The notes under the pieces: generated by a model
What the model was told of the DNA's origin: nothing
Seen by the model: only the letters and a program-made list of their open reading frames with translations
Database searches by the model: none
Made by a program: the position numbers and the translations under genes
NCBI GenBank assembly: GCA_027485235.1
Contig: JAIXRJ010000036.1
Span: 124,001 to 188,000, forward strand
Source of the DNA: Comamonadaceae bacterium
GTDB lineage: Bacteria > Pseudomonadota > Gammaproteobacteria > Burkholderiales > Burkholderiaceae_C
Direction of reading: 5' to 3'
Length of the DNA stretch: 64,000 nt
Shown here: positions 24,922-64,000 of the stretch, in pieces
Layout of the letters: every line of letters starts with the position of its first letter
Position numbering within the stretch: position 1 is the first letter of the stretch

Positions 24922-26328
<1,407 letters not shown>

Positions 26329-26343
26329 GGTGTTGGGCAGGCC

Positions 26344-28452
26344 TTAAGGCTGGGTCGGCGTCACAGGCAGAACAGGCTTGAGCTCGGGCAGCACCGCAGC
26401 GCCTTCGATCGGCAGGCCCGGCGAGGCCACAGGCTGGACGCCCGTTTGGTTCAAGCGCATCTGCTCGTAGCGGCCCAAAGACAAGGCTTCGGTGGCTGCA
26501 CCATCGCGCACCACCACGGGCCGCAGGAACACCATCAGGTTGGTTTTTTTGCGGCTGCGCGCCTCGGCCTTGAACAGGTTGCCCAAAAACGGGATGTCGC
26601 CGATGCCCGGCACTTTTTCTTGTGTGCTGCTGGTGTCGTCTTGCAACAAGCCGCCCAAGACCACGATGGAGCCGTCTTCCACCAGCACGCTCGACTCGAT
26701 GGACCGCTTGTTGGTGATCAGGCCCGAACTGCTGGAGCTTTTGCTGTCGATGCTGCTGACCTCTTGAAAGATTTGCATCTTGACGGTGCCGTTTTCGCTG
26801 ATTTGCGGTTTCACCCGCAGGGTCAAGCCCACGTCCTTGCGTTCGATGGTTTGGAAGGGATTGACCGCTCCGCTGGCGCTGTTGTTGTTGGTGTACTGAC
26901 CGGTGACAAAAGGCACGTTTTGGCCGATCACGATCTTGGCCTCTTCGTTGTCCAAGGTCAGCAAATTGGGTGTGGACAAGATGTTGGCGTCGCCATTGGT
27001 TTGTAAAAAACGGGCCAATGCGCCCAAGGCCAAAACGCCGTTGCGTTGGCGGCCGGCGGCGATGTTCAAGCCGGTCGATGCGCTGTATTGCCCGTTGGCC
27101 GCGTTGGCGGCGAGGGTCAGCAAATTGGTGCCGCCCACCGAGAAGTTGGTGCCCAACAGACCCACGGTGCTGCCGCCGGTGCCGGTGCCGCTCATCCACT
27201 GGACGCCGAATTCGGCGGCCTTGTCGGCGCTGACTTCGGCGATCAAACTCTCGACAAACACCTGGGCACGGCGCTGGTCGAGCATGTCGATGACGCTGCG
27301 AAGTTGTCGGTATTGCGGCTCAGGCGCGGTGATGATGAGCGCGTTGGTGGCCGGGTCGGCCTGGATTTGACCGCCTGTGGAGGGCTGGGCCGATGGGCTG
27401 CTGCCCGGGGTGCTGGCGGCCGTGTTGTTGGGCGTGTTACCCGGCGTTGGAGCGGGCAGTCCCGACAGGTTGTTGAGGCCGCCGCCGCTGGCGCTGTTGC
27501 TGATGGCCGCACGCAAGGTGATGGCCAGTTTGGTGGCATCGGCATTTTTCAGATACACCACATGGATGTTGCCGCTTGCCGCATTCGCCCCGGTGGCGTT
27601 GGGCTGGTCGAGTTGTTCGATCAGGCTGCGCGTCAGGGCCAGTCGGGCTGGGTTGGCGGCGCGCACGATCAGGGCGTTGGTGCGGGCCTCGGCCAGCACG
27701 GTGGTCTTGAACAAGGTGTCGCTCAGGCCTTGTGCGGCGGGCGTGCCTGCGGCCGCACCCGAGTCGAGCAAGCGTTGCACCATGGGCGCCAAGTCGGCCG
27801 CGATGCCATGGCGCAGTCGGATCACCTCGACCCCGGTGGCATGGGCCACATCCAGAGCCGCGATGATGCGGCCCAAGCGCTGCAGGTTGTCACCGTAGTC
27901 GGTGATGATCAGGGCATTGGTGCCGGGGTTCACGTTGATGGTGTTGTTGGGACTGATCAAGGGACGCAGCACGGGCACCAGGTTGTTGGCGTTTTCGTGG
28001 TTGAGGCGGAAGATTTGCGTCACGATCTGGCCACTGCTGGCAGGGGCGCCGCCCGCATAGACGCTGCCGCTTTGCAGCTTGGCTTCGGCCTCGGGCAAGA
28101 CGGTGTACAGGCCTGCCGACTCCACCAGTGCAAAGCCTTGCATGCGCAACTGGGTGGCAAACAAATGCAAGGCCTGAGCGGGGGGCACCGCCACTTGGCT
28201 GGCGAGTGACATGGTGCCTTTGACGCGGGGGTCCACCACCACGTTGTGGCCCGACAGGCTGGCCAGTGTGCGTGCCACAGCGTCGATCTCGGCGTTGACA
28301 AAGTTCAGTGTGATCGGTTCTTTTTTGCCGGTCCCCGCCTTGTGGCTCGGGCTCTGGGCCCAGGCTTGGGCAGCACCGCCCAAAGCCATGCTGGCAGTAC
28401 AAGCGATCAGCGACAAGCGGCTGGCCTTGAAAAAAGTGTTCAGTGTGTGCAT
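26344..28452 (-). CDS. gspD: Type II secretion outer-membrane secretin GspD
   Basis: Forms the outer-membrane secretion channel, 702 aa. Signal peptide 1-32 (ends AWAQ); N0 domain about 45-120 (TLNFVNAEIDAVARTLASLS); N1-N3 repeats about 125-400, with a Gly/Asn/Pro/Thr-rich insertion near 315-365; and the secretin core about 430-640 with VPGIGDIPFLGNLFKAEARS and LMVFLRPVVVRDG. The C-terminal tail (about 650-702) may bind a pilotin, but no pilotin gene was found. It starts 4 nt after gspN ends. Confidence 0.95.
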   Translation of the reverse strand: MHTLNTFFKASRLSLIACTASMALGGAAQAWAQSPSHKAGTGKKEPITLNFVNAEIDAVARTLASLSGHNVVVDPRVKGTMSLASQVAVPPAQALHLFATQLRMQGFALVESAGLYTVLPEAEAKLQSGSVYAGGAPASSGQIVTQIFRLNHENANNLVPVLRPLISPNNTINVNPGTNALIITDYGDNLQRLGRIIAALDVAHATGVEVIRLRHGIAADLAPMVQRLLDSGAAAGTPAAQGLSDTLFKTTVLAEARTNALIVRAANPARLALTRSLIEQLDQPNATGANAASGNIHVVYLKNADATKLAITLRAAISNSASGGGLNNLSGLPAPTPGNTPNNTAASTPGSSPSAQPSTGGQIQADPATNALIITAPEPQYRQLRSVIDMLDQRRAQVFVESLIAEVSADKAAEFGVQWMSGTGTGGSTVGLLGTNFSVGGTNLLTLAANAANGQYSASTGLNIAAGRQRNGVLALGALARFLQTNGDANILSTPNLLTLDNEEAKIVIGQNVPFVTGQYTNNNSASGAVNPFQTIERKDVGLTLRVKPQISENGTVKMQIFQEVSSIDSKSSSSSGLITNKRSIESSVLVEDGSIVVLGGLLQDDTSSTQEKVPGIGDIPFLGNLFKAEARSRKKTNLMVFLRPVVVRDGAATEALSLGRYEQMRLNQTGVQPVASPGLPIEGAAVLPELKPVLPVTPTQP

Positions 28453-28456
28453 GGGT

Positions 28457-29281
28457 TCATCCCAAAGAAAGCAGGCTGCGTGCGCCTTGTCGGCGACCGA
28501 TGATGTTCAGCAAATTGGACAGGGCCGCTTCAGAGCCCGGTTCGGCGCTGGCTTCGCCTGTGAAACGCAGGCGCGATCCGACCCACTGGCCTTGACCTTG
28601 CAATTGCAGGGGCCCTTGCAAGGTGCTCAGCTGCAGCTCGGGTGTGGCGGTGCCTGCGGCGGTGCCGCGAATGTCCACGCGGTAACTGCCCATGGGCTTG
28701 AGGGTGCTCAAGCGCGACGAAAGGTCTTGTGCTTGCAAGCCGACTTGCCCTTGCATCTGCAGCCGCCCGGTTGCCCATTGCAGGCGCAAGGCGCTGGTGC
28801 TCAGCTGCAGTTGGCCTTCGGTTTGCAAGGTGTTCCACGGAGCCCCCAGGCCTGACAGCCAAGCCGCCGGCCAGCGTGAGGTGTGGTCGTTCAGTGCCAG
28901 GCCCAAGGTGGACAGACCGGCTTGGATTTGGGCCTCCAGGGCCTGGTCCATGCAGCAGTCTGCGTGCAGCGTGATCTGCCAGGCGGTCAGACCGGGCTGA
29001 ATGCGCCAGTGCAGCCGGCCTGGCAGGGTTTTGGCGTCCAGGGTGCCCGTGCCGCCACTGAGGGTGAGCTGGGCCGAGCCTTGCCACACGGTGCCGCGAG
29101 GGGTGTTCCATTGCACTTGGCCTTGGCTGGCCTGTGCCACGCCCCAGGCGAGCCAGCGGGCGGGTGCCCACAGCAGGCTGGCCAACAAGAGGCCCAGCGT
29201 GGCACCGCACAAGGCCCAAAGCCAAGCGGCGCCTGCTGTGCGGAGGGCTTGAGTGCGGCGCAGGGTCATGGGGACGGCCAT
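28457..29281 (-). CDS. gspN: Type II secretion protein GspN
   Basis: Accessory T2SS protein of 274 aa with one N-terminal membrane segment (about 15-38, WLWALCGATLGLLLASLLW) and a periplasmic beta-rich domain (PRGTVWQGSAQLTLSGG). ATG 29281 shares one base with the gspM stop (TGATG), favouring this start over the longer open frame. GspN is not present in all T2SS and its role is not well defined. Confidence 0.88.
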   Translation of the reverse strand: MAVPMTLRRTQALRTAGAAWLWALCGATLGLLLASLLWAPARWLAWGVAQASQGQVQWNTPRGTVWQGSAQLTLSGGTGTLDAKTLPGRLHWRIQPGLTAWQITLHADCCMDQALEAQIQAGLSTLGLALNDHTSRWPAAWLSGLGAPWNTLQTEGQLQLSTSALRLQWATGRLQMQGQVGLQAQDLSSRLSTLKPMGSYRVDIRGTAAGTATPELQLSTLQGPLQLQGQGQWVGSRLRFTGEASAEPGSEAALSNLLNIIGRRQGARSLLSLG

Positions 29282-29802
29282 CAGGGCAGGCGCAGCAACA
29301 AACTGCCGCTCCAGAGGAGGGGCTTGTCCCCTGTGGTGGGGGCCGTGGCCGTCGGAGCGTTGTGTTGCAGCTGCGCTTGGATCGGTCGCGTGTGCGCTTG
29401 TTCGCGGGCTTGCGCCAGCCATTGGGCCAGGGCCGGGGCAGGGGCAGCTTGCAAGCTCAAGCGCAGGTGCTCGCCCTGGGCTGTCAGCTGGGCCTTGGGG
29501 CCCAGCTCACTCAGGTGGCTTTCCAGCCATTGGATGGCGTCGCGGCGCGAGAGGGTTTGCGCTTGTTTCAGGGCGTCGGCTTGGGCTTGCAACTGGCGCA
29601 TCTGCTGGTTTTGAGTGTCCAGTTGGGCTTGCTTGATGGGGGCTTCTTGCCAGGTGCGCAGCGCCGGCGCCAAGCCCACCGTCCAGAGCAAGGCCAAGGC
29701 CAGCAACACAGCCGCCACGCCCAGCAGCCAGCGTTCGCGGGGGCTGCGTTGCTGCCACAGGGTCTGTGCCTGGGATGACAGGGTTTGGAGGCGTCGGGTC
29801 AT
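29281..29802 (-). CDS. gspM: Type II secretion protein GspM
   Basis: Inner-membrane partner of GspL, 173 aa. A cytoplasmic stretch (1-28, SPRERW), one membrane segment (about 29-46), a coiled-coil-like region (about 55-85, rich in Gln and Ala) and a small periplasmic ferredoxin-like domain follow the family plan. It overlaps gspL by 4 nt and gspN by 1 nt. Confidence 0.9.
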   Translation of the reverse strand: MTRRLQTLSSQAQTLWQQRSPRERWLLGVAAVLLALALLWTVGLAPALRTWQEAPIKQAQLDTQNQQMRQLQAQADALKQAQTLSRRDAIQWLESHLSELGPKAQLTAQGEHLRLSLQAAPAPALAQWLAQAREQAHTRPIQAQLQHNAPTATAPTTGDKPLLWSGSLLLRLP

Positions 29803-31031
29803 GGTGAGCCCTCTTGGATGCGCATGCGCCAGATGTCACCCTCGGCGCGCAATGGGTAGCCTTGTGTGGCCAATTTTTTTTGAACGTTTTGCAGCTCTTG
29901 CGGGCTGAGGGGCCAGGCGCTCAGCTCCAACAAGCCAGGCTCAAAACGCCATTGTCTTGGCGCAGCCGTCTGGGGCGGCAAAGCTTGGCCGAGTGCGCCC
30001 AGCATGGACTCCAGATCGCTCGGGCCGAGCCAGTGCGATGCCTGGCGAAGCTGGCCGACTTGCTGCGCCATTTGCAGGGGCGCATCCACCACCACGGTGG
30101 TGCCGGGAAAACTTTGACGCAAGATCTGTGTCCAAGAGGCTTGCTGGGCTTGCCAATCGCTGCGGGTCTTCCAGGCCCAGACGTTGAGCCCCAGCAGCTG
30201 GGCCAGCAGCAGTGCAGCGATTCCCCACCGCGCCATGCCCCATTGCGGCTGATGCCACAGCTGGCTGGTGCTGCGTTGTGCCGTTTTGAGCAGCCGCGCC
30301 CGGGGGTGCGTCTGGAAACCGAACTGGGCCAGGTCCCAACCGCTTTGCAGGGCGGCCCACCAGTGCTGGGCAGGGGGCATGAGGCGCGCTGGGGTTTGCA
30401 AGCGCTCGCTTGTGATGCTGAAGGCGGCAGGTTCTGCCTGAATCAGGGCCGCTTGCAGCTGCTCCGGGCTCAGGGCCAAGCTGTGGCGGTGGGCTTGGGC
30501 CAGAGGCAGACGCCACACACCTCGCTCCTCATCGCTCAGCCACAGCCAGCCTGTTTCGGCGTCGCCGGTGGCGGTGATGTGCAAGCGCTCAGGATGGGGG
30601 GCAAATTCGGGCACGATGCGGTGCACCGTGGTGCCTGTGGCTTCCAGTGCAGACAGATGCGCTTGAAGCCATGGACGGCTGCACACCGCCACCCACGGCT
30701 GTGGTGTGGTGGACCATTGGGGGGGCAAGGCCATGTGCAATTGCTCGGGGTCGTCCAGCAGACGCTCCTCGAGCAAACCATGCAAGGCGGCTTCGAGCCG
30801 GGCGCGCTGTTTGTGCAAACCTGCCGGCAAGGTCACCCGGTGCCAAGAAAGGGCCCCTGCGGGGACCAGCGCGACCACTTCGCACGAGCGGTCAGGTTTC
30901 GGCAACAAGTGGGCTTGCGCCCAACGCAGTTCCAAAGGGGGCTGTGCCGCCTCGGTCTGGGCCCAGGCGTGCAGGTAGGCCGTGCTGGCGCTGGCCTCAC
31001 CCATGGGTAGTTGAACGATCAGTGTGCGCAT
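29799..31031 (-). CDS. gspL: Type II secretion protein GspL
   Basis: Inner-membrane assembly protein of 410 aa. The cytoplasmic actin-like domain (about 1-240) binds GspE; one membrane segment (about 250-272, WGIAALLLAQLLGLNVWAWK) precedes a periplasmic domain (about 280-410). Start ATG 31031 (MRTLIVQLP) is chosen because it begins the conserved N-terminus and lies 7 nt after gspK; the open frame continues upstream inside gspK without conserved sequence. Confidence 0.9.
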   Translation of the reverse strand: MRTLIVQLPMGEASASTAYLHAWAQTEAAQPPLELRWAQAHLLPKPDRSCEVVALVPAGALSWHRVTLPAGLHKQRARLEAALHGLLEERLLDDPEQLHMALPPQWSTTPQPWVAVCSRPWLQAHLSALEATGTTVHRIVPEFAPHPERLHITATGDAETGWLWLSDEERGVWRLPLAQAHRHSLALSPEQLQAALIQAEPAAFSITSERLQTPARLMPPAQHWWAALQSGWDLAQFGFQTHPRARLLKTAQRSTSQLWHQPQWGMARWGIAALLLAQLLGLNVWAWKTRSDWQAQQASWTQILRQSFPGTTVVVDAPLQMAQQVGQLRQASHWLGPSDLESMLGALGQALPPQTAAPRQWRFEPGLLELSAWPLSPQELQNVQKKLATQGYPLRAEGDIWRMRIQEGSP

Positions 31032-31038
31032 GTGCCAT

Positions 31039-31998
31039 TCATTGTAGGGTGGGCGTGTGACGCTGCGATGGTGAGCGCACACGCCAGAGCATGCGCACTT
31101 GCTGGGCTTCGCGCCGCACCAGCGCTTGTTCTTGTTGCACCACCTGGTCGATGCGCATGCGCCCATGGATTTCAAAGTACTGGCTCTGGACGCTGTGCCG
31201 CTTGCTGTCCAGCGATGGGCCAGCCGGGCCCCAGGCTTGGCGTGCGGCTTCCAGGCTGTTCCAGGGTGCGCGTTCGCGCAGTGCCACCAATTGCCTGGCC
31301 GAGGCCAGATCCAGGCCCGGCACACTGGCCATGAGCACCTGCGCGCTGGCGGTGTTGAGGTTCACCGGGGTGGTTTCGGGCAGCACGGTGATGAAGGGCT
31401 CCAGCGCCTGCAGTGTGCTCGGGCTCAGCCCCAGCCAGACCAGTTGCGCCGTGCGTTGTGGCACCAAGGGAACGCGGCTTGCGGCCAGGGTGGCGTTGCT
31501 GGACGCGGACAGGGCCAGCGCCAATTGCTGAACAAACGCGACCAGCTCTTGCTGGGGCAAATTCATCCGTTCAAACAAGCGCCGCCAACTGGCCCATTCG
31601 GCGGGGACAATTTGGCCCTTGTCCACCAAGTTTCTGACGTTCAAACGCGACTGCGCATCGGTGATGTGGCCGGACAAAAACACCTCGGCATCGCCTTCTT
31701 GCCAACGTTGGTCTTGCGCCAAAAAGGTGGACAGCTTGGACTCTTGGACCGGCAAGGCCCAGGGTTCGCCCAAATGGTCCACACCAGCGCCTTGGGCTGA
31801 CAGGGCGTCTTCGCGCAGGATCAGGCGTGTCCAATCGAGCGCGCCGGTCATCATCCAGGCGGTTTGGCTGCGGGCGCGCTCGGCCGATTCAATTTCAACT
31901 TGTCGCCACTGTTGCCACAAGGCCCCGCTGGCGAGCGTGGCCACCAGGGCCACGGTCAGCATGGCCATGAGCAAGGCCGCGCCTTTTTGTGGCTTCAT
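31039..31998 (-). CDS. gspK: Type II secretion minor pseudopilin GspK
   Basis: Large minor pseudopilin that caps the pseudopilus tip, 319 aa. The short leader MKPQKG precedes a hydrophobic helix AALLMAMLTVALVATLASGA, cleaved by prepilin peptidase after the Gly. The GspK alpha-domain is visible as NLNTASAQVLMASVPGLDLA (helix-hairpin-helix-like) and WQEGDAEVFLSGHITDAQSR. It overlaps gspJ by 4 nt. Confidence 0.93.
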   Translation of the reverse strand: MKPQKGAALLMAMLTVALVATLASGALWQQWRQVEIESAERARSQTAWMMTGALDWTRLILREDALSAQGAGVDHLGEPWALPVQESKLSTFLAQDQRWQEGDAEVFLSGHITDAQSRLNVRNLVDKGQIVPAEWASWRRLFERMNLPQQELVAFVQQLALALSASSNATLAASRVPLVPQRTAQLVWLGLSPSTLQALEPFITVLPETTPVNLNTASAQVLMASVPGLDLASARQLVALRERAPWNSLEAARQAWGPAGPSLDSKRHSVQSQYFEIHGRMRIDQVVQQEQALVRREAQQVRMLWRVRSPSQRHTPTLQ

Positions 31999-32687
31999 GG
32001 GGTGGCCCCAGACAGGCTGGGCCGGACCCAGTCCAAGGTGATCCCACCCGCGCCTGCAGGGCCCGGTGGCAGGCGCAAGAGGAGGCGCACGCCATCGGGC
32101 ATGCTGGATTCGGCGCGGGGCGGCGCGCTGCTGTTGGCCGTGACCACGGCGCTGGACAAGGGGTTGGTCCAGCTGCCGCCGCGGTGCACAAAGATTTGCC
32201 AGCCTTCCAGGGGGTGGATGTTCACTTGGCCGCTTTGTGTTTGTGCGTCAGGGGTCTGTGCCCACTGCTCGGCCAAGCGCCAAGCGGACAGCCAGTCGCT
32301 GCGCACGGTCACGGGCGCAGATTGCCAGCGCTGCCAGTCGCCACCGCCGGCGCGAGCGGGATCGCTGCGCCAGGTCCAGGCCACGACCTGGACCGCTTCG
32401 GCGGGCGTGCTGGCGCGACGCGTCAGCCGCAGAACTTGGCCATTCCAGTCCCAAGCGGGTGTGCCCGTCAGTTCCATGGCTTGGTCGAGATCGCTTTGCC
32501 ATTGGGCCAGTCCGGCTTGCAGGGTGCGGATATCGTCGCCGCGGCTTTGCAAGCCACTTTGGGTGCGCAGCATCCCGTCCAGACCGCGCCAGGCCATGAG
32601 GGACATCAGCGCCATCACCGCGATCGCGACCAAGACCTCGATCAAGGTGAAGCCGACCGATGGGCCGTGCACAGGCCGCTGGCCCAT
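31995..32687 (-). CDS. gspJ: Type II secretion minor pseudopilin GspJ
   Basis: Minor pseudopilin of 230 aa. Prepilin site G|FTLIEVLVAIAVMALMSLMA occurs after a 12-residue leader. The body contains WRGLDGMLRTQSGLQSRGDD and LRLTRRAST, typical for GspJ. It overlaps gspI by 1 nt at its 5' end and gspK by 4 nt. Confidence 0.93.
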   Translation of the reverse strand: MGQRPVHGPSVGFTLIEVLVAIAVMALMSLMAWRGLDGMLRTQSGLQSRGDDIRTLQAGLAQWQSDLDQAMELTGTPAWDWNGQVLRLTRRASTPAEAVQVVAWTWRSDPARAGGGDWQRWQSAPVTVRSDWLSAWRLAEQWAQTPDAQTQSGQVNIHPLEGWQIFVHRGGSWTNPLSSAVVTANSSAPPRAESSMPDGVRLLLRLPPGPAGAGGITLDWVRPSLSGATP

Positions 32688-58691: not shown

Positions 58692-61082
58692 TCAGCGGCG
58701 AAACAGATCAAGGATGCGGTTTCTTTCTTCTGCGGCCGGGGCAGAAGAAGGTTTGGCTGCAGGGCTCTCTTGGCCCAAACCCAAAGACGTGATGTTGCCC
58801 TCTTTGGACGAACCCTCAAACACCCAGTCACCGCTAAGCTGGACCAGGCCTTCTGGCAAAGCGGGTTCTGACACGGGCACGCCGCGAAGCGCCGACTCCA
58901 TGAAGCCGATCCAAACAGGGAGGCTCAACCCACCGCCTGTTTCACGATCGCCCAGCTTGCGCGGTGAGTCATACCCTATCCAAACCACGGCCGCCAGATT
59001 TTGTTGGTAGCCTGCAAACCAAGCATCCATGGCGTCGTTGGTCGTGCCCGTTTTGCCGTAAATGTCAGGTCTTTTCAGAGTGGCCTGTGCCCTGGCGGCA
59101 GTACCGGACCGTGTCACCTCCTGCAGCAAGCTGGTCATGACATAGGCGTTGCGCGCACTGATGGCGCGTTGGGTTTCTTCGGGATTGGAAGGGGTCGGGC
59201 TGTCAACGAGCACACGGTCCTTGTGGTCGGTGATGCGTGTGATCAAGTGGGGCTGCATGCGGTAACCGCCATTGGCAAAAACCGCATAACCCGTCGCCAT
59301 TTGCATGGGGGTGACCGAGCCTGCGCCCAAGGCCATGGTCAGGTAGGCCGGGTGTTTGTCTTTGTCAAAGCCAAAGCGGCCGATCCATTCTTGTGCGTTG
59401 CGCGGTCCGACCGATTGCAGGACTTGGATGGACACCATGTTCTTTGACTTGGCCAAGCCACGCCGCAAACTCATGGGTCCCTCAAACGTACCGTCGTAGT
59501 TTTTCGGCTCCCACGGCTGTCCCCCCGTCACACCCGCATCGAAAAACAAGGGAGCATCGTTGACCACAGTGGCGGGTGTGAAGCCCTTTTCGAGGGCTGC
59601 AGAATAAATAAAAGGTTTGAAGCTCGAGCCCGGTTGTCGCCATGCTTGTGTCACATGGTTGAATTTATTTTTGGCAAAGTCAAATCCTCCCACCAAAGCT
59701 CGAACGGCACCGGTTTGCGGCGTGATGGCGATCAAGGCGCCTTCGACCTCCGGCAATTGTGTGATTTCCCAACTGCCTGTGCTGGTTTGGGTGACACGCA
59801 CCACAGCGCCCCTTCGCACTTGTTTGGCCGGCAGGGCTTTGTCGGACAACCCTGATTGGACAGGTTTAAGCCCTTCACCTGTGATGGTGATTTGCTCGCC
59901 ATTTTGGCGAACAACGACCACTTTGCGAGGCGAGGCCTCCAACACGACGGCAGACATCACATCGCCATTGTCAGGGTGTTCTTCCAGGGCTTCGTCAACG
60001 GCCTCGTCCATTTTCTTGGGGTCTGCAGGCAAGTCAATGAACTTTTCAGGGCCTCGGTAAATTTGCCGACGCTCAAAGTCCATGATGCCTTGACGCAATG
60101 CCTTGTAGGCAGCCATTTGTTCGGCTGAGTTGACCGTCGTGCGAACGTTCAGACCCCGTGTGTAGGTCTCTTGACCGTATTGGGCAAAGACCATTTGGCG
60201 AACGGTCTCTGCGACGAACTCGGCATGCAAAGTCCGCTTGTCATCCAATGAGCGCAGGGTCAAGGGTTCGGCCTTGGCGGTTTTGGCCTGAGCCGAGGTG
60301 ATGTAGTTGTTGTCCTCCATGCGCTCAATGATGTAGAGCTGTCTTGATCGCGCACGTTTGGGGTTGCTGATGGGGTTGTAGGCCGATGGTGCCTTGGGCA
60401 GACCTGCCAGCATGGCGGCCTCGGCGATGGTGATGTCTTTGAGCGATTTTCCAAAATAAGTTTCTGCGGCCGATGCAAAACCGTAGGCACGGTTGCCCAG
60501 GAAAATCTGGTTCATGTAGATCTCAAGAATCTGGTCCTTGGTCAACAGGTGTTCGAGTTTGTAGGTCAATAAAATTTCATAGATTTTGCGGGTGTATGTT
60601 TTTTCGGACGACAAATACACATTGCGCGCCACCTGCATGGTGATGGTCGAGGCGCCTTGGCTTTTGAGCCGTCCGATGTTGGCGATACCCGCTCGCAAAA
60701 TGCCCAAATAATCCACGCCACCGTGTTGGTAGAAACGGTTGTCCTCGATCGACAACACCGCATTTTTCATGACTTGAGGAATGTCTTGGATGGGGGTGAG
60801 TTGTCGACGCTCCTCGCCGAACTCGCCCATCAGTTGTCCATCGGCTGTGTAAATGCGCAAGGGCAGTTTGGGCTTGTAATCGGCCAAGTCTGAAATGTCA
60901 GGCAGGTTGGGGTACGCCACGACCATCGCCACGCCGACAACCAAGAAGATGGACAGGAGAGCGGCCACCAAAAGACCGGTGCACCACAGGGTCAGTTTCA
61001 CGGCCCATGAAGACATGGACCTTGGCTGAGATGAGCGCGCCTGGCGTGTGGGTTCTTGGGGTGTTTTGTCTTGGGCTGGCAT
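58692..61082 (-). CDS. mrcA: Penicillin-binding protein 1A (bifunctional glycosyltransferase/transpeptidase)
   Basis: 796 aa from ATG 61082 (a GTG at 61118 and an ATG at 61016 are alternatives). A cytoplasmic tail, one membrane segment (about 29-55), the glycosyltransferase domain with EDNRFYQHGGVDYLGILRAG, and the transpeptidase domain with SSFKP (S-x-x-K), SKN and KTGTTND motifs are in order. An OB-like insertion lies between. It builds peptidoglycan strands in the periplasm. The pilM locus begins on the other strand, as is common in this order. Confidence 0.94.
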   Translation of the reverse strand: MPAQDKTPQEPTRQARSSQPRSMSSWAVKLTLWCTGLLVAALLSIFLVVGVAMVVAYPNLPDISDLADYKPKLPLRIYTADGQLMGEFGEERRQLTPIQDIPQVMKNAVLSIEDNRFYQHGGVDYLGILRAGIANIGRLKSQGASTITMQVARNVYLSSEKTYTRKIYEILLTYKLEHLLTKDQILEIYMNQIFLGNRAYGFASAAETYFGKSLKDITIAEAAMLAGLPKAPSAYNPISNPKRARSRQLYIIERMEDNNYITSAQAKTAKAEPLTLRSLDDKRTLHAEFVAETVRQMVFAQYGQETYTRGLNVRTTVNSAEQMAAYKALRQGIMDFERRQIYRGPEKFIDLPADPKKMDEAVDEALEEHPDNGDVMSAVVLEASPRKVVVVRQNGEQITITGEGLKPVQSGLSDKALPAKQVRRGAVVRVTQTSTGSWEITQLPEVEGALIAITPQTGAVRALVGGFDFAKNKFNHVTQAWRQPGSSFKPFIYSAALEKGFTPATVVNDAPLFFDAGVTGGQPWEPKNYDGTFEGPMSLRRGLAKSKNMVSIQVLQSVGPRNAQEWIGRFGFDKDKHPAYLTMALGAGSVTPMQMATGYAVFANGGYRMQPHLITRITDHKDRVLVDSPTPSNPEETQRAISARNAYVMTSLLQEVTRSGTAARAQATLKRPDIYGKTGTTNDAMDAWFAGYQQNLAAVVWIGYDSPRKLGDRETGGGLSLPVWIGFMESALRGVPVSEPALPEGLVQLSGDWVFEGSSKEGNITSLGLGQESPAAKPSSAPAAEERNRILDLFRR

Positions 61083-61194
61083 GAGGGGCGTTGGCTGGGC
61101 AAGCCGGTTGGCCACCACTTTGGATTATAAAAATCTCCGCCGTGATGGGTGATCTTTTTAGGAAAAAAATGAATTCTTTGGAATTAATAAACCA

Positions 61195-61266: not shown

Positions 61267-62019
61267 ATGCAAGCACTCAAGCGCCTTTGGCAAAAGACAG
61301 GGTTCGGCAGGGCGCGCCATGCTTGGGGTTTGGCGTCCGGTCGCCAAGCTTGGACCTTGGTGGGATTATCCCTTCAAAGTGCCAATTTGTGGCGGGTCCG
61401 CACATCGTCCGTGCTGAGCCCGCAACCCGGCTTGTCTTCGCTGGACGCTTCGTGGCTCAGTCAAGCCCTGGTCGATGCGTCCCACCCCTCTAAAGGCACG
61501 CGCCAGCCCTTGGCCATGAGCTTACCCGACGCGGATATTGTGAGCGGGCAGATGCCTTGTCCATTGCAGTTGCCAAAGCAAGACTGGCCAGCCGATGTGC
61601 AGTTGGAGGTGGCCCAGGCCTTGAACTTGCCGCCAGAGGCGGTCAATTTTGATTTTGTCCTGACGGCGCCGGGTGTGACGGGGCCTTCACACCTTCAATG
61701 GGTGGGCTGCGCGCGCAGTGTGGTCTTGCAACACCAGCAACAGATTCGGGCCAGCCGTGTTTGGCGCTTGGCCTCTGTGGAGCCAGAAATGGATGCGCTG
61801 CGGCGAGCGGCCCAGGCTTTGTTGGGTGGCTTGCCCAGTGTGTTGAAGCAAGCCCCACAAGACTGGCAATTTCGCTGGCCAGACGAACCGGGCGCAGCGG
61901 TGGGGGGCGCTGTTGTGGAGAACGGCGCGTTGAGCGACGATGTCTTGCGCGAAACCTTGGCTTCGCCAGCAGGTCCGCGCCTGGTCGCGGCAGGTTTGGC
62001 TTTGAAAGCGTGGGCCTGA
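61267..62019 (+). CDS. pilM: PilM-like type IV pilus assembly protein, reduced
   Basis: 250 aa, about 100 residues shorter than usual PilM (about 350 aa). PilM is a cytoplasmic actin-like protein that binds ATP and PilN. Here the expected N-terminal phosphate motif (GIDIG-S-x3-K) is not seen; the region reads SGRQAWTLVGLSLQSANLWR. The C-terminal end (SPAGPRLVAAGLALKAWA) keeps the family character, similar in size and form to HofM of enteric bacteria. Strong GGGGAGGAG precedes ATG 61267. Its stop overlaps pilN. Assignment rests mainly on locus order and the end region. Confidence 0.75.
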   Translation: MQALKRLWQKTGFGRARHAWGLASGRQAWTLVGLSLQSANLWRVRTSSVLSPQPGLSSLDASWLSQALVDASHPSKGTRQPLAMSLPDADIVSGQMPCPLQLPKQDWPADVQLEVAQALNLPPEAVNFDFVLTAPGVTGPSHLQWVGCARSVVLQHQQQIRASRVWRLASVEPEMDALRRAAQALLGGLPSVLKQAPQDWQFRWPDEPGAAVGGAVVENGALSDDVLRETLASPAGPRLVAAGLALKAWA

Positions 62020-62603
62020 TGTCGGGCTTCAATTTGCTCCACTATCCCACGTTGGACCAGCATCTGCGTTTGCGCCGACGCTGGCTTGCGCTGGGCTTGG
62101 GTGCGGCCTGGGGCGTGCTCTTGGCGGGGGGCTGGTTGCAATGGCAAATTGGGCAGACCGAGCAGTTGCGTCAGACTTTGCAGGGGCATGAGAGCCGATG
62201 GAAAGAGCACACAAGACAAGCCGAGGCTGGGCAATTGCTGCGCCAGCAAAACCAAGCCCAAAACGCACAAACGGCCTGGCTGACGCGTGTGCAAACGCAG
62301 CAGAGCGCGTGGACGGTCCTGCAAAGCAGTTTGCTCGAGGAAGCCCCCCGGCATGGCCTTCACTTGCAGCGCCTGCAAGTGGAAGCGGACCGGATCGAGG
62401 TGCATGGGCAAGCCCCTTCGGCGCAGGCCATGAACCGTGCTTTGCAAGCCTTGTCCAAGCGTTGGGGGCATGGCTTGTACCTGTTGAGTCAGGAAGCGGC
62501 TTTGGCCGCTGACACACCTGCACCCGGTGTGTCTTTCGTCTGGCAAGGCACATGGCCTGGTTTGAGCGATGGCCCCGTGTCCGACAGCAAGGTCAAACCA
62601 TGA
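62019..62603 (+). CDS. pilN: PilN-like type IV pilus inner-membrane protein
   Basis: 194 aa. A short cytoplasmic N-terminus FNLLHYPTLDQHLRLRRR corresponds to the PilM-binding INLLPxR motif but with changes; one membrane segment (about 25-44, ALGLGAAWGVLLAGGWLQW), a Gln-rich coiled-coil region (about 45-95) and a periplasmic ferredoxin-like domain follow. It starts within the pilM stop (TGATG) and overlaps the next gene by 4 nt. Confidence 0.82.
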   Translation: MSGFNLLHYPTLDQHLRLRRRWLALGLGAAWGVLLAGGWLQWQIGQTEQLRQTLQGHESRWKEHTRQAEAGQLLRQQNQAQNAQTAWLTRVQTQQSAWTVLQSSLLEEAPRHGLHLQRLQVEADRIEVHGQAPSAQAMNRALQALSKRWGHGLYLLSQEAALAADTPAPGVSFVWQGTWPGLSDGPVSDSKVKP

Positions 62604-63589
62604 AACCCCGTCGCCTGTTCATGAAACTGACCCGCCGCGCCCCCGGTTCTTGGCCTGCCTTGCAGCTGTGGTGTGAGCACCAGTTCAAGCGGTGGTCCCT
62701 GGCGATGGGAGGGATCGTTTTGGGTTTTGTGGGGGTCATGTGGGTGGCCATTGACCTGGGTGCTGAGTACGAACAAGTGCAGCAAGCGGTCGACGCCGCA
62801 GCGTTGCGCCTGCAGAAGCTCCCCGCCCCTTCCTTGTCGGTGCCCAGTCGGGACCCTCACCCAGCCAGCGCATTGCAAGCCCGTTTGACAGTGGGTGTGC
62901 CTGCGGACACCTGGACTGACGTGCAGCACGCCCTTCAGGTTCACGGCGTGCAAGTGGTGTCGCTGCGTGTCTTGCCGCAGGCCATGGGCGGACCCCTGCA
63001 CAGCCAAGCGGTGGCCCTGCGATTGCAGGCGCCGTTTGAACAATGGCTGCAAGCCTGGGTTGCTCTGGCCGAGGCCGGCCCCGTGGTCTCTTTGGATCGG
63101 ATGGGCGTCACGCCCATGGAGGCGTCCCAAGGGGTGCAGTTGGATGTGGTGATGCGCTTGTGGTTCAAGCCCGGCAGCGAAGTTTCTCAGGCCACAGTGG
63201 CCTGGTCTTTGGATGAGCTCAAGTCCGCGGGCTCCGGCTTGCGGGCAGGTGCCCACGCAGAAGTTTTTGTCCCGGTGGTGCGCACCCAACTGCCGCCAGT
63301 TTTGCCGCAAAGTGCCGTCGCCGCTCCAGAGCGCGCATCCGATGAAACCGCCTTGCCGGCCCATCCCTCGCTGTGGCCGATCAGCCGTGTTCGCTTGCTG
63401 GGGACATGGCAACAGGGTGTGCAATGGCAGGCGGTGTTGGGCGCTGCCCAGGCCTGGGCACCGTTTGGACTGGGGTCGCGCGTGGCGATCGAGGGCTACC
63501 AACTGGAGTCGATCCGCCCCGATGCGGTGATCCTCCGGTCGGCACAGGGGCAGACGTTGGAAATGAAAACCTCCGGAGGTGGGCCATGA
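62600..63589 (+). CDS. pilO: Apparent PilO-PilP fusion protein
   Basis: 329 aa. Residues 1-55: cytoplasmic tail and one membrane segment (about 34-52). About 55-200: PilO-like periplasmic region with a coiled coil and ferredoxin-like fold (VHGVQVVSLRVLPQAMGG). About 200-258: flexible Pro/Ala/Ser-rich linker. About 262-329: a small beta domain resembling PilP (ISRVRLLGTWQQGVQWQAVL, GSRVAIEGYQLESIRPDAVI). Normally PilP is a separate outer lipoprotein; no pilP gene follows here. It overlaps pilN and pilQ by 4 nt each. The arrangement resembles GspC of the T2SS. Confidence 0.75.
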   Translation: MKPRRLFMKLTRRAPGSWPALQLWCEHQFKRWSLAMGGIVLGFVGVMWVAIDLGAEYEQVQQAVDAAALRLQKLPAPSLSVPSRDPHPASALQARLTVGVPADTWTDVQHALQVHGVQVVSLRVLPQAMGGPLHSQAVALRLQAPFEQWLQAWVALAEAGPVVSLDRMGVTPMEASQGVQLDVVMRLWFKPGSEVSQATVAWSLDELKSAGSGLRAGAHAEVFVPVVRTQLPPVLPQSAVAAPERASDETALPAHPSLWPISRVRLLGTWQQGVQWQAVLGAAQAWAPFGLGSRVAIEGYQLESIRPDAVILRSAQGQTLEMKTSGGGP

Positions 63590-64000
63590 AGCGTGGGTGT
63601 GTTGTGGGTTTGGGCTGGCTGGGCCCGGCATTTTGGGCATCGGCGCAAGCCTTGCAGCCGGTCATCGATGGCGATGGCTTGTCTCCTGCGGCCAAATCGG
63701 CCGTCACGGCAGACGGTCAAGCGATCAGTTTGAATTTTCAGAACATCGAAATCCGCGCTCTTTTGCAAGTATTTGCACAGTTCACCGGTTTGAATTTGGT
63801 GGTGTCCGACACCGTTGCGGGCCAAATCACGGTGCGTTTGGTCGACGTGCCCTGGGTGCAAGCCTTGAGCATGGTGTTGCAATCGAAAGGCTTGGCATCT
63901 CGCCGCGAAGGCAATGTGCTCTGGGTGGCACCCCAAGAGGAATGGGCCTTGCGAGAGCGAAAAAACCTGGAGTCCAAGGCGGCACTCGAAGCGGTGAGTC
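63586..64000 (+). CDS. pilQ: Type IV pilus secretin PilQ, N-terminal part (truncated by window end)
   Basis: 138 codons of a secretin, open to the last base. A signal peptide (about 1-22, ending ASAQA) and a secretin N0/STN domain (about 40-115: AISLNFQNIEIRALLQVFAQ, FTGLNLVVSDTVAGQITVRL, VPWVQALSMVLQSKGLASR) are clear. No AMIN domain precedes the STN domain, unlike classic PilQ with one or two AMIN repeats, so this secretin is short at its N-terminus. GGAGGT precedes ATG 63586, which overlaps the previous stop. Confidence 0.87.
   Translation, partial: MKRGCVVGLGWLGPAFWASAQALQPVIDGDGLSPAAKSAVTADGQAISLNFQNIEIRALLQVFAQFTGLNLVVSDTVAGQITVRLVDVPWVQALSMVLQSKGLASRREGNVLWVAPQEEWALRERKNLESKAALEAVS

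Follow-up and report, generated by a model that had tools for sequence, protein, structure and literature searches.

The pil locus and its fused gene

The window, that is the whole 64,000-nucleotide stretch of DNA analysed here, corresponds to G000:C17:124001-188000 in a genome of the genus Limnohabitans, to use the NCBI name. Towards its end it carries a tightly packed type IV pilus operon on the + strand, in which the frames are open and overlap their neighbours by one to four bases. It comprises pilM (61267..62019), pilN (62019..62603), a single open frame of exactly 62600..63589 encoding 329 amino acids, and pilQ (63586..64000), whose 464-residue frame extends past the window end. The pilM stop and the pilN start overlap in TGATG (62017-62021), and ATGA overlaps are found at both joints of the 329-residue gene, with pilN and with pilQ, which is indeed the next gene, as had been read from the sequence alone. 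The divergent mrcA gene (PBP1a; 58692..61118, - strand) lies upstream and marks the usual place of pil operons; downstream of pilQ, aroK-like and aroB-like genes were recognised by eye. The same gene order and the same place beside mrcA are found in related genera, and, wherever pilQ was matched, mrcA adjoins its operon in 48 of 50 loci, among them 24/24 of Limnohabitans; it was not found beside the operon in genomes G081 and G158. A promoter scan upstream of pilM returned no candidate that passed on the + strand.

The window PilM has 250 residues, corresponding to the first lobe of a protein that usually has about 355; it scores 20.5 bits with Pfam PilM_2 (cut-off 27), and the genus PilM profile aligns to positions 1-208 of 355 in canonical PilM with a probability of 98.6. 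PilN begins with MSGFNLL (canonical: INLLP) and reaches 18.4 bits with a canonical PilN model and 14.1 bits, below cut-off, with Pfam PilN. Since both proteins fall below the Pfam cut-offs, their identities rest on place and profile comparison.

Domains and fold of the fused protein

The 329-residue gene encodes one protein with PilO and PilP domains. In the predicted fold, a single N-terminal transmembrane helix and coil (residues 18-73, 62651..62818) are followed by an alpha-beta-beta, ferredoxin-like PilO core (residues 100-191, 62897..63172), a disordered linker (residues 192-254, 63173..63361) and a C-terminal beta domain of the PilP / GspC-HR type (residues 255-326, 63362..63577), all on the + strand. 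The linker, with 44% Pro/Ala/Ser/Thr and pLDDT mostly below 50, contains neither a lipobox nor a second hydrophobic segment. Model confidence is moderate (pLDDT 65.9, pTM 0.38) and does not fix how the two halves lie relative to each other. A comparison of profiles, with PilO and PilP profiles derived from 20 source loci that include the G081 fusion described below, agrees with PilO and PilP halves. The genus alignment shows conservation in the two domains (0.59 and 0.65 identity), whereas the linker varies in length from 49 to 63 residues and has an identity of 0.26.

In Pfam searches the window protein itself passes neither the PilO model (PF04350, below cut-off) nor the PilP model (PF04351, no match), but some of its relatives do. 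PF04350 (cut-off 22) is passed by the Limnohabitans proteins of G015 (32.5 bits) and G034 (23.0 bits), and the PF04351 cut-off by the fused proteins of G015, G008, G139, G081 and G096; in G015 both domains are over cut-off in one protein. An NCBIfam search of the window protein gave no match over cut-off, and a homologue (P0010) is annotated as 'GspMb/PilO family protein [Limnohabitans sp.]'. A PDB sequence search yielded nothing beyond a pair of chains of ADP-ribose pyrophosphatase (E 0.006-0.007), which we take as chance matches. The fusion proposed in the sequence-only reading is thus borne out by the fold of both halves, including a PilP-type fold at residues 255-326, by profile comparison and by orthologues over the Pfam cut-offs.

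The C-terminal half no longer has the features of a lipoprotein. A lipobox is absent from the last 220 residues in 28/28 fused proteins, and the highest 19-residue hydropathy over the same region, 1.04 in the window protein, is at most 1.49 in the fused proteins except that of G182 (1.97). With no lipobox and no separate chain, what is present here is a PilP domain and not a PilP lipoprotein.

The sole Pfam match over cut-off in the window protein is T2SSM_b, and its model matches, among others, structures of GspC HR and of the GspM type, as would be expected if this were a GspM-GspC protein of type II secretion and not part of a pilus. We find this scarcely credible: the locus occupies the mrcA-aroK pil place with pilM, pilN and pilQ and is not made of gsp genes, its relatives score as PilO and PilP, and the window has type II secretion genes of its own at 24922-32687 (- strand), where a secretin and an ATPase were identified by family search and gspL-, gspK- and gspJ-like genes by eye. 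In type II secretion systems, GspC and GspM are two separate proteins; the likeness to GspC that had been drawn from the sequence holds with one qualification, that the counterpart would be GspM and GspC fused together and not GspC on its own.

Fixation of the fusion in Limnohabitans

A search of 60 genomes with the window protein matched 22, comprising 22/36 in the genus and 0/24 outside it. The 14 genus genomes missed by this search were traced through PilP matches or secretins, and 13 of them have the fusion at the same place; in G017, with 9% contamination, the secretin region (L123) looks Tad-type by eye. Both halves lie in one frame between mrcA and pilQ in 24/24 genus loci, a count obtained with a model built up from the genus itself and thus not an independent test, and 11 further genus genomes matched over both halves with no stops. 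The fusion is therefore present in 35 of the 36 genomes and is fixed in Limnohabitans. A search for related loci found none with the single window protein and two named loci with the alignment.

A separate PilP, too diverged to be recognised or lying in an assembly gap, could in principle act beside the fused protein. The window genome (G000) is a draft of 50 contigs and 95.85% complete, and PF04351 misses both the fused domain here and the separate PilPs of G085 (L076) and G150 (L077), where a strongly diverged PilO is accompanied by a lipoprotein-like PilP; Pfam absence alone thus does not mean fusion. We nonetheless consider such a second PilP very improbable. There is no room for one between pilM and pilQ, and each of the four PilP matches across the 36 genus genomes falls within the fused frame; the one-contig and nearly closed genomes contain no further PilP, within the same limit of the PF04351 model.

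Fusions in other genera and number of origins

PilP is widespread in the family, with a Pfam match in 139 of 150 genomes, and is usually a separate lipoprotein, as the sequence-only reading had stated. PilO and PilP lie in different frames, with no fusion, in all 42 canonical loci checked (30 within the family, 12 from elsewhere in the order), and 41 of them have a lipobox; all of these are best-scoring PilP rows and thus form a favourable sample. Because the PilP search counts frames from stop to stop, long frames are not fusions by themselves, and among the long PilP frames of G081, G097, G127 and G140 only that of G081 is fused. This fusion, from another genus (L105:3796-5004, + strand), is a little-diverged 403-residue frame scoring 93.2 bits for PilO and 95.7 bits for PilP. 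The fusion of G139 reaches 74.6 bits for PilP and 15.1 bits (E 4e-4) for PilO, and that of G096, with a GTG start, 41.9 bits for PilP and a weak 9.6 bits (E 0.02) for PilO; G182 is less surely fused, its PilP score of 18.8 bits being below cut-off and PilO not being seen. More fusions may exist among the remaining PilP matches of the family.

Limnohabitans forms one clade in the trees of PilQ (support 100/100) and MrcA (100/99). The fused label requires five changes on the PilQ tree, of which well-supported branches force one, and four on the MrcA tree, of which they force three; G096 and G182 are scored as fused in these counts despite a PilO that is weak or unseen, and several rows sit on long branches. 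The PilQ tree is without L087-L089 (no pilQ match above 100 bits) and L090 (a distant secretin, no mrcA), and the MrcA tree is additionally without L105 and the short rows L084 and L085. A repeated origin of the fusion within the family is likely on these change counts; a single origin is not favoured, since the MrcA tree forces three changes, although the PilQ tree forces only one.

In G139 the PilO-PilP fusion adjoins a second one, of PilM with PilN (L070:7155-8387, - strand; 411 residues), in which PilM_2 (31.0 bits) and PilN (25.8 bits) are both over cut-off. The PilM-PilN protein has 218 matches in the protein collection at E up to 0.001, and both Pfam domains occur in most of the 120 that were listed. 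This would bring the G139 platform down from four proteins to two.

A reduced type IVa pilus machine

The sequence-only reading had suggested that the fusion may mark a derived machine, and this agrees with the other components: PilM is one-lobed, PilB is short, the window PilQ lacks AMIN, and PilT was not found. The window PilQ keeps the N0/STN, Secretin_N and Secretin domains (Pfam), whereas AMIN was absent from it in the same search that gave 136 bits for AMIN in the canonical PilQ of G073. PilB of the window genome (L121:7914-9269, contig C7; 405 residues from ATG) matches positions 169-563 of the 564 of its model and is without the N-terminal domain, and no PilB passes the curated cut-off in any of 80 genus genomes (0/80). 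It lies in the order ispB-pilB-pilC-pilD-coaE, in which the adjoining PilC and PilD were named by eye. In the related genera, which share the place and gene order of the operon, PilM is two-lobed, AMIN is part of PilQ in the one case checked (G073), and most genomes have PilT.

No PilT was found in the window genome with TIGR01420, the three matches below cut-off lying at GspE, at PilB and at another ATPase, which is MSHA-like. The model works, as it detects PilT in 21 of the 25 family genomes searched outside the genus; PilT is over cut-off in 11 of 40 genus genomes and not found in the other 29, some of which are incomplete. In the sub-clade of the PilQ tree that holds the window (fork support 88/73), it was not found in 10/10 genomes. 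A link between the fusion and PilT loss was dropped, because fused genomes with PilT exist: PilT is over cut-off in three of the four other fused genomes. One of these three frames, the PilT-type frame of G139 (C1:173312-174313, - strand), holds one internal stop (TAA), and the retraction motor of this genome is possibly broken.

Such losses could also be those of a relic pilus operon in decay, with the fusion as one step of erosion; the missing PilM lobe and PilB domain, the lack of a detectable PilT and the strong divergence of PilM, PilN and the fused protein would all fit. This reading is improbable, as the overlapping frames of the window are all open, mrcA, pilQ and the fused frame are kept in 24/24 genus loci, and conservation is concentrated in the two domains and not in the linker.

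Proposed mechanism and function

The window genome encodes a type IVa pilus set of PilB, PilC, PilD, PilM, PilN, PilO, PilP, PilQ and pilins. Ten prepilin-type N-termini were counted, among which one major-pilin-like protein (contig C38) and a minor-pilin-like cluster (C16) were recognised by eye. DNA-uptake genes are also present, namely comEC, dprA and a candidate comEA (a 103-residue frame, HHH_3 30.8 bits), and ComEC turned up in 37 of 40 genus genomes; the three in which it did not have a completeness of 75-84%. ComEC and DprA are common in the control genomes (10/14 and 11/14) and are hence weak evidence for DNA uptake.

In Haemophilus influenzae, PilM, PilQ and PilB are likewise short (ComA, ComE and PilB), whereas PilO and PilP (ComC and ComD) are separate proteins. 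A passage of one paper reports that nontypeable Haemophilus takes up DNA with a type IVa pilus lacking PilT (PMC6668835), a PilT-less com/pil machine of the kind proposed here. From this parallel, together with ComEC and DprA, the machine is likely devoted to DNA uptake. The fusion would also be compatible with an adhesion or surface pilus, or a pseudopilus, with ComEC and DprA serving elsewhere or not at all; such a function shares the fusion with the explanation we favour and does not exclude its core. The major-pilin-like protein and the minor-pilin-like cluster are kept, and the lack of PilT fits a non-retracting fibre. We consider this rather unlikely, given the near-constant presence of ComEC in the genus and the PilT-less DNA uptake reported for Haemophilus in the passage cited above.

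We propose that the PilO-PilP protein is probably a one-piece arm by which PilQ is held above the platform in the inner membrane, in a reduced type IVa pilus whose likely role is DNA uptake. The PilMNOPQ complexes of Pseudomonas, Neisseria and Myxococcus have the same PilO and PilP folds and a secretin with N0, but PilP is there a separate lipoprotein. In P. aeruginosa, PilP binds PilNO through its N-terminus and PilQ through its C-terminal beta domain, as a passage of PMC5805733 states, which makes a join at PilO a natural shortcut. The PilO half would pair with PilN in the membrane, and the linker would span the periplasm in place of the unstructured PilNO-binding segment of PilP. In G081 this segment seems still readable (ELQAWM, cf. 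canonical DELRQWM), while in Limnohabitans the variable linker stands in its place. Given the PilP fold and the N0 domain, both of which are kept, the PilP half would dock on N0 of PilQ; the fusion would fix PilO:PilP at 1:1, and a PilP domain tethered in this way would no longer need a lipid anchor or a PilNO-binding segment. The direct tie between inner membrane and outer-membrane secretin that had been read into the fusion is accordingly plausible. Least certain is the last step, in which a pilus extended by the short PilB and retracted without PilT would feed DNA to ComEC.

More tentatively, and with some doubt on our part, the type IV pilus platform may have been pared down several times, in Limnohabitans and in other genera of the family, to a minimal engine for DNA uptake. 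In it, a 1:1 PilO-PilP chain would stand in for the lipid anchor of PilP, the second PilM lobe, the PilB N-terminal domain and the PilQ AMIN are discarded, with PilT lost too in the branch of the window, and a single genus is left with PilM-PilN and PilO-PilP alone.

The fusion is not unprecedented. A passage of PMC3169554 (2011) notes in passing that PilP and PilO are fused in 'a few cases', with P. putida Q88CU9 as the example, in an argument on stoichiometry in which the copy number of PilO/PilP (or GspM/GspC) facing the secretin is argued from rare fusions. Q88CU9 is likened to the window protein through that mention, PilO and PilP being joined there too in one type IV pilus protein. It differs in belonging to another lineage, whereas the Limnohabitans fusion is fixed in the genus, recurs in other genera and belongs to a machine that is further reduced; relative to that mention, what is new is genus-wide fixation in a reduced machine. 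Among the literature matches listed, no other paper on a PilO-PilP fusion, and none for Limnohabitans, was evident by title or abstract; no paper in the library searched joins Limnohabitans, type IV pili and competence, and none of the titles listed by a further search concerns its pili, which seem to have been little studied. A genus with a one-chain PilO-PilP throughout is natural material for counting subunits and for solving the arm as a single protein. This freshwater genus is also a natural deletion series (the PilM lobe, the PilB N-terminal domain, AMIN in the PilQ tested, and PilT by branch) that points to the dispensable parts of the machine.

The window genome also contains a further pilus locus (L122, C40:23000-42000), MSHA-like by eye, to which a secretin, an ATPase and prepilin-like proteins of its own belong.
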